Part shown: positions 8,413 through 11,834 of the stretch, one piece after another
Numbering within the stretch: position 1 is the stretch's first letter
How the letters are laid out: every line of letters starts with the position of its first letter
DNA from: Acidobacteriaceae bacterium
Lineage (GTDB): Bacteria; Acidobacteriota; Terriglobia; Terriglobales; Acidobacteriaceae
Assembly: GCA_027452245.1 (NCBI GenBank)
Contig: DAIDGW010000220.1
Coordinates: forward strand, 1-64,000
Direction: 5' to 3'
DNA length: 64,000 nt
Program-made: the position numbers and the translations under genes
The notes under the pieces: generated by a model
Databases searched by the model: none
Told to the model about the DNA's origin: nothing
Seen by the model: the letters and a program-made list of their open reading frames with translations, nothing else

Positions 8413-9930
8413 CTATTGCGTCACGCGAAAAACCACGTTGCTTTTGAGCGTGCCGCCGGAAGTGGTCACTTCGACCGTGCCGGTAGTCGCGTCAGCGGGG
8501 ACGGTCGTTTCGATATAGGTACCCGAAATAATGGTGAATGTTCCTGACGTTCCATTGAAGCTGATGCTGGTAGCGCTCGCCAGATTGTTTCCCAGGATGC
8601 GGACCTTCGTTCCCACGCGGCCCGAGGTAGGCACGGTCTCTACGAACGGGCTGAGACCGACCGACAGCTTGTAGACGATGCCGATGCTGTAGCCTCCGGA
8701 GGAGGTCGAGCCGTAAAAGCTGCCGTCAGTCGCCTGCATTACGCCGGCGAATACGTCCGCGCCGTCGCCACCGTCTGCCGGAAGGAATCTGTGCAACGTG
8801 GTCAGCGTGCCGGTCGGTGTAATTTGGAAAACCGTCCCGCATCCAGCGAATTGGCACCCTCTGAGGCTGCCGCCAAGTCGCGTCGTACCGTAGAGATTTC
8901 CGTCAGTGCCTTGGACCAGCCCCGCAAGCGGGCTTTCACCGTCAGTGTTGTGAAAGCTGTGCAATGTTGTCAGCTTCCCGTTGGGCGTGAGCTTGAAGAC
9001 CGTTCCTTCCTTGAACGCCCCGCCTCCGTAAGTTGTCCCATAGAGGTTCCCGTCAGTGGCTAACACGATTCCTCCATTCGGAGCATAGCCGTCGGTGCAT
9101 GTTGCTTTGGAGCAAAAGCTGTAAAGCGTGGTCAGCTTCCCGTTGGGCGTGAGCTTGAAGGCCGTTCCTTGCTCGAACGCCCCGCCTCCGTAGGTTACCC
9201 CGTAGAAGTTCCCGTCCACAGCTTGCACCAACGTCCCGGCGGGTTCTGCACCATCAGCGCAGTCGGCCAAGTTGCAGAAGCTGTGAAGCGTGGTCAGCGT
9301 CCCTGACGGTGTAATCTCGAATACCGTTCCACAACCGTTATAGTTACAGACGACGGAATTGTTGTTGGCTCCGCCATTTTCCGTCGTCCCGTAAAAGTTC
9401 CCATCGGGTGCTTGTATCAGCCCTTCGGGCCATGCGCCATCCGGGCAGTTCGCTTGGGAACAGAAGGCGTAGAGCGTGGTCAGCGCACCGGTGGGGCTCA
9501 CCCGGAAAACCGTGCCGCAGCCGTCAGTACTGCAGTTGCTGCTCGTCCCGCCGAGGCGGGTCGTACTGTAGAAGTTCCCGTCGGTAGCCAGGACCAAGGG
9601 CCCGCCCGGATCCGAGCCGTCGCTGAAGTCGAAACTGTAGAGCAGCGTAAAACCGCCTGAAGGAGTCATTCTGAAGACGGTGCCATCGAAATTTGCACCC
9701 TCTAGAGCACCTGTTGTGAAGAAGTTTCCGTCGAGGCCCTGAACGAAGCTGCTGGCGCAGCACTCGGTAATATTAAAGTTTGCCAGCTTCTCGTACTTCT
9801 GCGCGGGTGAGGAATTTGCAGCTACAGCGATGAAGACGAGAGTGAGACAGCCGAATTTCATGATTTTCGACGTGCTGTTCATTTTGCGCTTTGGAGCAGC
9901 GAGAATTGCAGAGATTAGCGGTCGCGACAT
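8413..9930 (-). CDS. secreted choice-of-anchor tandem-repeat (GloVer-type) protein with C-terminal IPT/TIG-like domain
   Basis: Repeated motifs LTTLYSFC...ADGNFYGTTYGGG...GTVFKLTPNG; C-terminal VPTSGRVGTKVRILGNNLASATSISFNGTSGTF. Confidence 0.8.
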   Translation of the reverse strand: MSRPLISAILAAPKRKMNSTSKIMKFGCLTLVFIAVAANSSPAQKYEKLANFNITECCASSFVQGLDGNFFTTGALEGANFDGTVFRMTPSGGFTLLYSFDFSDGSDPGGPLVLATDGNFYSTTRLGGTSSNCSTDGCGTVFRVSPTGALTTLYAFCSQANCPDGAWPEGLIQAPDGNFYGTTENGGANNNSVVCNYNGCGTVFEITPSGTLTTLHSFCNLADCADGAEPAGTLVQAVDGNFYGVTYGGGAFEQGTAFKLTPNGKLTTLYSFCSKATCTDGYAPNGGIVLATDGNLYGTTYGGGAFKEGTVFKLTPNGKLTTLHSFHNTDGESPLAGLVQGTDGNLYGTTRLGGSLRGCQFAGCGTVFQITPTGTLTTLHRFLPADGGDGADVFAGVMQATDGSFYGSTSSGGYSIGIVYKLSVGLSPFVETVPTSGRVGTKVRILGNNLASATSISFNGTSGTFTIISGTYIETTVPADATTGTVEVTTSGGTLKSNVVFRVTQ

Positions 9931-10062
9931 CCAGAAATCCTTTCGCGGGACGGACTGACGATCCTCCAGCAGCGCTAGCGCGAGGCGGGCCGTCTAGAAA
10001 TGCAGGCTCTTCTGGGGGAAGAGCGATAGCCGGAGAATTATCCTTCGGGGCGGCTATGCTGT

Positions 10063-10156
10063 CAATTGGGGAAACATCCGGATTACACTCATCGTCCAAA
10101 CATACCTGTGCGAACCGAATCGCAACGAGTCGGAATTTGAGTGTTAACGCCTGGTT
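10063..10156 (+). repeat. full-length 94-bp structured direct repeat, copy B
   Basis: Same orientation as copy A, with four mismatches over 94 bp. Confidence 0.9.
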
Positions 10157-10543
10157 ACGGCAGTCATCGTGCAAGCTGGCGAACGCCCTGCGAAAATGCT
10201 CCAGTCGTGTTCGATGAGATTCCACCTCGGCGAGCCCCGGAGCCAGCGGTTTTACATTTTTAATTTTGCATTCATTTCTGCATTTTCCCCAGTATTGTTC
10301 GCAACCACGTGGCCTCTTTGGTGGCACCCGCTGTCATTTCAGGACAAGTTTGTGTTAGGGGTTTGATAAGGAGCAAGCGCTGATGGCCGAACCCGTCTGT
10401 GATGCACGGACATCGTGACCGACCTCGCGGCCGCCCCGCTCTTGAACACGCGAAAGCTGCGGCAGTTCCTCTGTTACACTGCCCACGAAAACGACGTAGA
10501 CGTCCCGGCTGTTTCAAGATTTCCAGAGTGAACGGAAGGTGAC

Positions 10544-10798
10544 ATGAACATCGAAATCATCTCGTGCCCGACCTGAACTGGCAATCAGGCCAAGGCTGCG
10601 AGTCTCGCGGCCCGAATCAGGGAACGGATCGGCATCACACCTACCATCAAATCGGGCGCCGTTGGCCAATTCGATGTGATCGCGGACGGCGAGCCAGTTG
10701 CCACCCGAGGCGGAAACTGGTTCACGCGCAGATTTGGCGCAGGCTATCCAGATCTGGACCGTCTGCTCGATGCGCTCGAAAAGCGAATCCGAAAATAA
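10544..10798 (+). CDS. putative selenoprotein, SelW/Rdx-like (CxxU), 84 residues with UGA read as Sec at codon 11
   Basis: MNIEIISCPTUTGNQAKAASLAARIRERIGITPTIKSGAVGQFDVIADGEPVATRGGNWFTRRFGAGYPDLDRLLDALEKRIRK*; in-frame TGA at 10574-10576; RBS-like GGAAGGT just before the ATG; resembles SelW layout (CxxU, G.F.V...G, C-terminal helix). Confidence 0.75.
10594..10612 (+). promoter_or_regulatory. candidate bacterial SECIS hairpin
   Basis: GGCUGCGA-GUC-UCGCGGCC, 8-bp stem (one G-U pair) with a 3-nt loop starting with G; loop begins 26 nt after the UGA. Confidence 0.65.
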
Positions 10799-11040
10799 AC
10801 CACCGGCCATTTCACTACGCGAGCTCGAAGTGTGACAAGCTTGGCGCGGGTTGCCGGCGCGTTTCGGCCACTTGGCCGTCTGATCACCCGGCCGCAAAAG
10901 AACGACGAGCAGAGATGCAGGCTAGACGATCTCCTGAGTCATGTAGCAGCAAAGCCCAGCCCTCGACCGCGAAGTCTGAGGCACGCGCTGCGGCGTCGGC
11001 CCCCTAACGTCCGCAAAACAAAAAGAGCAGGCAGCGTTCC

Positions 11041-11208
11041 TCATCCGCGCTTGAGAAATCTCAGGTAGAAAGCTGCGAAAACCAGCACGATTCCTATATT
11101 GGCGATCAGCCTTTCCCAGAAGCGGTGCCGGAAGAACAGGAAATCCACGCCGACTACTGCGGCCACCATCAGCAATACGTAGAGCACGATCGTTAGCTGC
11201 TTTTCCAT
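11041..11208 (-). CDS. hypothetical small membrane protein
   Basis: MEKQLTIVLYVLLMVAAVVGVDFLFFRHRFWERLIANIGIVLVFAAFYLRFLKRG, two hydrophobic helices; start re-assigned. Confidence 0.6.
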   Translation of the reverse strand: MEKQLTIVLYVLLMVAAVVGVDFLFFRHRFWERLIANIGIVLVFAAFYLRFLKRG

Positions 11209-11834
11209 CTTGCTCTTAATATTAAACAAATCCCGGTTAGACAGGTCCGCCTGTTCCCCTAAACCACCACCTGTTTTCCTTCTCCCCGGCTCTGGGCTTC
11301 TGTGGGAGCGGCACCCTGAGCAGGTGCTGATCGGGCCTTCGTCCATAAGGCTCAATCATTTACAGCGAATGTACATACATAATGATAGCTACTGCGATAT
11401 ATGGAATCGACGCCAGGGTGGTTTCCTGCCCCCTAGGGCGATTTCTGGCCTCCGGCCGACGTCCGGGATGGTGGATGTCGAGGTCGTCGCTCTAATGGCA
11501 TTGCAGGCCCCGCAAAGGGCATTCTGGGCGAGGCTCTGAGCGCCGAACCAAAACTTCTGAAGTGTACATACAATTGTGGAACTACTTGCAGTCTCGGGTC
11601 CGATAAATCGAGGCGTTCTGCGGAAGCTGAATCGAATCAAGCACTTGTGGGCGACCCCGCCCGAAGTGCTCGGTTGAATACTAATCGATGCCGAAGGTGC
11701 TGTTGCGATTTTCAACAACTCTATTCAGGCAATCGCTTTACCCGAGAACGCCGCCCCGGATCGTGATCCATTTTGCCGGCATTTCCCTGCGCGATGGGGA
11801 GGATCAGACGGCCCGGCTCCGGCGGCGTCTCCCG

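Follow-up and report, generated by a model that had tools for sequence, protein, structure and literature searches.

A SelW/Rdx-like gene with a predicted selenocysteine codon and a conserved insert marks a divergent subfamily in Acidobacteriota

Bacterial SelW-like selenoproteins have been known for two decades. These CxxU proteins belong to the most frequent selenoproteins of bacteria, and their Cys homologues are scarce (PMC1088965, PMC2398784, PMC1794560). SelW genes missing from annotations have also been described earlier (PMC4607533). The gene described here lies in a window of 64,000 nucleotides, the whole stretch of DNA that was analysed, from an Acidobacteriaceae bacterium. It resembles the bacterial SelW-like selenoproteins (Pfam Rdx PF10262, NCBIfam TIGR02174 / NF041051) in its small size, N-terminal CxxU, beta-alpha-beta-beta-alpha order and G-x-F-x-V segment, and, as in that group, a bSECIS follows the UGA and Sec predominates over Cys at the site (PMC1088965, PMC2398784, PMC1794560). 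Unlike them, the window type adds a conserved segment of about 8 residues (GGN-x-x-TR-x-FGAGYPD) and has one more residue between the Sec and the AASLAA helix, the window protein reads CPTU as compared with CGVU-NY and falls below Pfam/NCBIfam detection, and no Cys version of the subfamily was found among the relatives recovered. No description of the insert-bearing subfamily in Acidobacteriota was found in the open-licence literature searched, and this divergent SelW subfamily, with its conserved insert and as yet without a Cys version, appears to be undescribed there. We consider it very probable (roughly 0.95) that the product is a selenoprotein of 84 residues, a divergent SelW-like/Rdx member of the thioredoxin-fold proteins, in which Sec is inserted at the UGA via a SECIS and which would act as a CxxU thiol-selenol oxidoreductase.

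The original prediction had proposed a single open frame running from ATG 10544 to TAA 10796-10798, interrupted solely by a TGA at 10574-10576 (codon 11) and preceded by an RBS-like GGAAGGT. Frame, coordinates and translation were reproduced exactly, and GGAAGG(T) was found just ahead of the ATG (Table 1). The frame was also said to be absent from the ORF track, and the mechanical list (ORFs of at least 80 aa) indeed holds no ORF in it. Gene finders miss such a real gene because the UGA is taken as a stop, and by ORF logic the gene is presumably unannotated. On the plus strand nothing promoter-like was seen upstream of the gene, and 9900-11400 contained no terminator-like site. Gene neighbourhood was conserved only in one same-genus genome pair (L019 and L020) and thus provides no operon clue to function.

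Table 1. Features of the predicted selenoprotein gene, in window coordinates.
Feature	Position	Strand	Basis or remark
Predicted SelW/Rdx-like selenoprotein gene, 84 residues (Sec = residue 11) plus TAA stop	10544..10798	+	Start, length and frame kept in orthologues
Probable ribosome-binding site, GGAAGGT	10534..10540	+	Sequence; 3-4 nt to the ATG, a rather short spacing
CxxU redox motif, Cys8-Pro-Thr-Sec11	10565..10576	+	All 38 aligned relatives keep Cys8
In-frame UGA, predicted Sec codon	10574..10576	+	25 distinct genes have TGA at this codon
Bacterial SECIS hairpin, 8-bp stem GGCUGCGA/UCGCGGCC, loop GUC at 10602-10604, 25 nt past the UGA	10594..10612	+	Fold, energy, covariation, synonymous-codon control, published rules
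Conserved RGGNWFTRRFGAGYPD segment, subfamily mark, exceeding the corresponding loop of ordinary SelW-like proteins by about 8 residues	10706..10753	+	Alignments

When searched alone, the window protein had no match to Rdx in Pfam or to the SelW models of NCBIfam, and the two scans returned only a weak GcpE match under its cut-off (E=0.011). Its relatives behaved differently: Pfam Rdx matched 12/13 close members (E up to 1; best 1e-7) and 35/38 aligned relatives (E up to 0.01; best 1.3e-20), which places the window protein in a divergent subfamily. The HMM search against SelW/Rdx families that had been proposed as a check was therefore positive for the relatives and negative for the window protein itself. 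The original prediction had missed this divergent subfamily, with its insert in the C-terminal half and a window protein that Pfam Rdx does not recognise.

A profile search of PDB sequences yielded chance-like partial matches and a weak match to 2oka (E=1.6). The AlphaFold2 model (mean pLDDT 83.5, pTM 0.72) had the order E3-7, H12-29, E34-37, E43-47, E50-54, H59-63, H71-83 and was least certain at residues 61-70, within the insert segment. The UGA had been predicted to fall at the Sec position of a CxxU motif, and CPTU occupies residues 8-11 of the model, with strand 3-7 before it and helix 12-29 after it. Foldseek comparison with the PDB gave nine matches with E<=0.001, all of them chains of 2p0g, 2ojl, 2oka, 3dex, 2obk and 2fa8. 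These six structures, three of them with SelW-related or Se-binding in their titles, filled ranks 1-21, followed by mouse SelW (2npb) and MIEN1 (2ljk) at ranks 23 and 24. The six share the modelled fold (Foldseek probability 1.00, TM about 0.70-0.77) but have only about 17-24% identity and lack the insert. The claimed SelW/Rdx layout (beta-alpha-beta-beta-alpha order, N-terminal CxxU, G-x-F-x-V) is shared with the bacterial SelW-like proteins, SelW-related structures lead the Foldseek list, and the protein is predicted to adopt the Rdx/SelW thioredoxin-like fold, although fold and sequence evidence are not fully independent since the AlphaFold2 alignment included Rdx relatives.

Two further groups of proteins from the same class could be compared with the window type. 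The Cys-type Rdx proteins (CTQCRWLLRAAW, L072-L082) align a Cys to the Sec position but carry CxxC in place of CxxU, have no insert and possess a C-terminal KELKQ-VRD-IAP motif which is absent from the window protein. The short CFxU SelW-like selenoproteins (L022-L025) have a UGA at the matching codon and are homologous by profile comparison (E=2.1e-15), while differing from the window type in their shorter length, the lack of the insert and the motif RCFxU. L022-L025 represent a second, shorter SelW-like selenoprotein type, some members of which have a GGA-loop hairpin past the UGA.

The UGA was conserved in the insert-bearing (GGN) genes, with TGA at the same codon in 25/25 distinct genes, counting that of the window and with duplicates removed. 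Within the genus the gene was patchily distributed, being found in 2/37 genomes including the window's own, which is a point against the selenoprotein reading; the one same-genus orthologue retains the TGA. Wider searches recovered orthologues in the same family, class and phylum, and those with names were Acidobacteriota MAGs, Candidatus Polarisedimenticola svalbardensis among them. In the phylum search a relative was present in 84/396 genomes, and nearly all of those listed had exactly one internal TGA. Comparison of homologues at this codon, which had been suggested as a check, gave UGA in the orthologues and Cys in the same-class Rdx proteins; as the searches turned up no Cys member of the exact subfamily, a classic Sec/Cys pair can be drawn only by including Rdx proteins at large. 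This is another point against the selenoprotein reading, as are the missing direct model match of the window protein, the modest single-sequence fold z-score given below and the Gly orthologue described next.

The only sense codon among the close orthologues was a GGA (Gly) in place of the TGA in L021 (G199:C51:8421-8651), where the hairpin is down to 6/8 pairs and the genome retains selA, selB and selD. This gene (start codon region near 1731, minus strand) resembles a case of Sec loss without a switch to Cys, and its Gly codon could also be a sequencing or assembly error. Among other unusual copies, L114 (G980:C244:80002-80238) is a distant relative of the insert-type protein which has no stop and carries Phe at the Sec site (CTMF). 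Two possible decaying copies were observed as well, namely a fragment running out of frame (L117, G992:C145:29814-29876) and a copy with an extra TAG (L051, G521:C577:5548-5796).

Published rules for bSECIS elements specify a loop of 3-9 nt with a G in its first two positions, an upper stem of 4-16 bp, a distance of 16-37 nt from the UGA and an MFE of <= -7.5 kcal/mol (PMC13188914). The RNA past the window's UGA folds into a hairpin with 8/8 pairs formed, which the original prediction had missed and which falls within all of these constraints: a 3-nt loop starting with G, 8 bp, 25 nt and a stem-loop energy of -12.5 kcal/mol. In an alignment of 16 sequences both sides had changed in 4/8 pairs, and 96% of cells were paired as compared with 89% in shuffles and 31-51% when the partners were slid. 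Pairing holds in 98% of cells across the 25 genes, with GUC, GUU or GGC as the loop. The hairpin might simply reflect conservation of the AASLAA peptide, and to exclude this the synonymous codons were shuffled using the window's codon usage; the observed pairing of 97.6% compared with a mean of 69.5%, and none of 20,000 reshuffles was as high. The single-sequence fold z-score against dinucleotide shuffles was modest (-1.73). Many ordinary SelW-like genes of the phylum have the same hairpin as well, there 22 nt after the UGA.

A search of the genome for selA, selB, selC and selD had been named as a check on the selenoprotein claim, and all four were present in the window's genome, which is 97.6% complete. 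The tRNA-Sec (anticodon tca) was located on C43, selB on C202 (371 bits), selA on C265 (549 bits) and selD on C108 (365 bits), all above curated cut-offs. The selD gene (L102, G000:C108:27259-28203) itself contains one in-frame TGA, in KAAGUASKLSP, and the formate dehydrogenase gene fdhA (L123, G000:C215:36274-39264) also contains one, in QARIUHSSTVPGLG, followed by its own hairpin containing GGUCU. Both positions match the Sec sites known for the SelD and FdhA families, so UGA very probably specifies Sec in at least two other genes, and the genome would encode at least three predicted selenoproteins when the window gene is counted with fdhA and selD. These findings bear on the possibility that readthrough of the UGA gives a residue other than Sec, such as Trp through near-cognate decoding. 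Sequence by itself cannot prove which residue is inserted, but a genome with complete Sec machinery and other predicted Sec genes, a hairpin that follows bacterial SECIS rules and is kept by compensatory change, and a position occupied in the CxxC Rdx homologues by Cys and not by Trp together make such readthrough highly improbable.

Comparable odds, by our estimate very poor, attach to the explanation that the UGA is an ordinary stop, as UGA normally is, and that the frame past it arose by chance or belongs to a pseudogene in decay. Decay does occur in the family, since in L021 the UGA is gone and the hairpin is partly lost, and L117 resembles a broken fragment. Against this, the 25 genes share TGA at one codon, the SECIS covaries, and in 20 core members the mean residue identity past the UGA was 0.68 with no further stop. 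Mismatches past the UGA in 20 close orthologues were dominated by third positions (0.21/0.14/0.45 at codon positions 1/2/3), and pairwise dN/dS against the window gene downstream of the UGA was well below 1, at about 0.13-0.43 where computable, values which are rough because synonymous sites are near saturation. Judged by these substitutions, the reading frame past the UGA is under purifying selection; the downstream codons are coding-like, as had been claimed, and the dN/dS check gave no sign of neutral decay. The weakest alternative, with next to no probability, makes the opposite-strand frame at 10514-10897 (minus strand, 127 aa) the true gene and the UGA frame its mirror image; this frame is open in the window and nearly stop-free in the orthologues (2 stops in 20 sequences), but given the codon boundaries that it has in common with the plus gene, its fast-evolving first position and its lower residue identity (0.49 versus 0.68 for the plus frame) it is the mirror and not a gene, and the Pfam, fold and start-codon evidence all lies on the plus strand. 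The antisense and pseudogene readings were both rejected on substitution pattern, dN/dS and residue identity.

For the selenoprotein reading, a real selenium-containing redox protein is very probable because the relatives keep both the UGA and the hairpin for reading it as selenocysteine, and the strong comparative evidence points to Sec insertion in the cell. Translation would arrive at the UGA at codon 11, SelB and the Sec-tRNA would bind the hairpin at 10594-10612, and Sec would be inserted in place of termination. By analogy with the family, the Cys8-x-x-Sec11 pair located where helix 1 begins is expected to be redox-active, probably cycling between the selenol/thiol and selenenylsulfide forms. 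The product would be a small thiol-selenol oxidoreductase, possibly with a low-molecular-weight thiol or thioredoxin as its partner.

More tentatively, the insert-bearing proteins may be a separate SelW subfamily, spread through Acidobacteriota and restricted to Sec. Cys would then be unable to replace Sec, so that genes losing Sec would decay (Gly, Phe, fragments) and not turn into a Cys version, and the GGN-x-x-TR-x-FGAGYPD segment would provide a partner or substrate unlike that of ordinary SelW; we hold this to be somewhat less likely than not. The gene adds a subfamily which current Pfam and NCBIfam models do not reliably detect, and the alignment together with the SECIS pattern could help in annotating numerous genomes of Acidobacteriota. 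With its losses to Gly and Phe and none to Cys, the UGA-only pattern provides a natural setting for testing why certain redox proteins depend on selenium.
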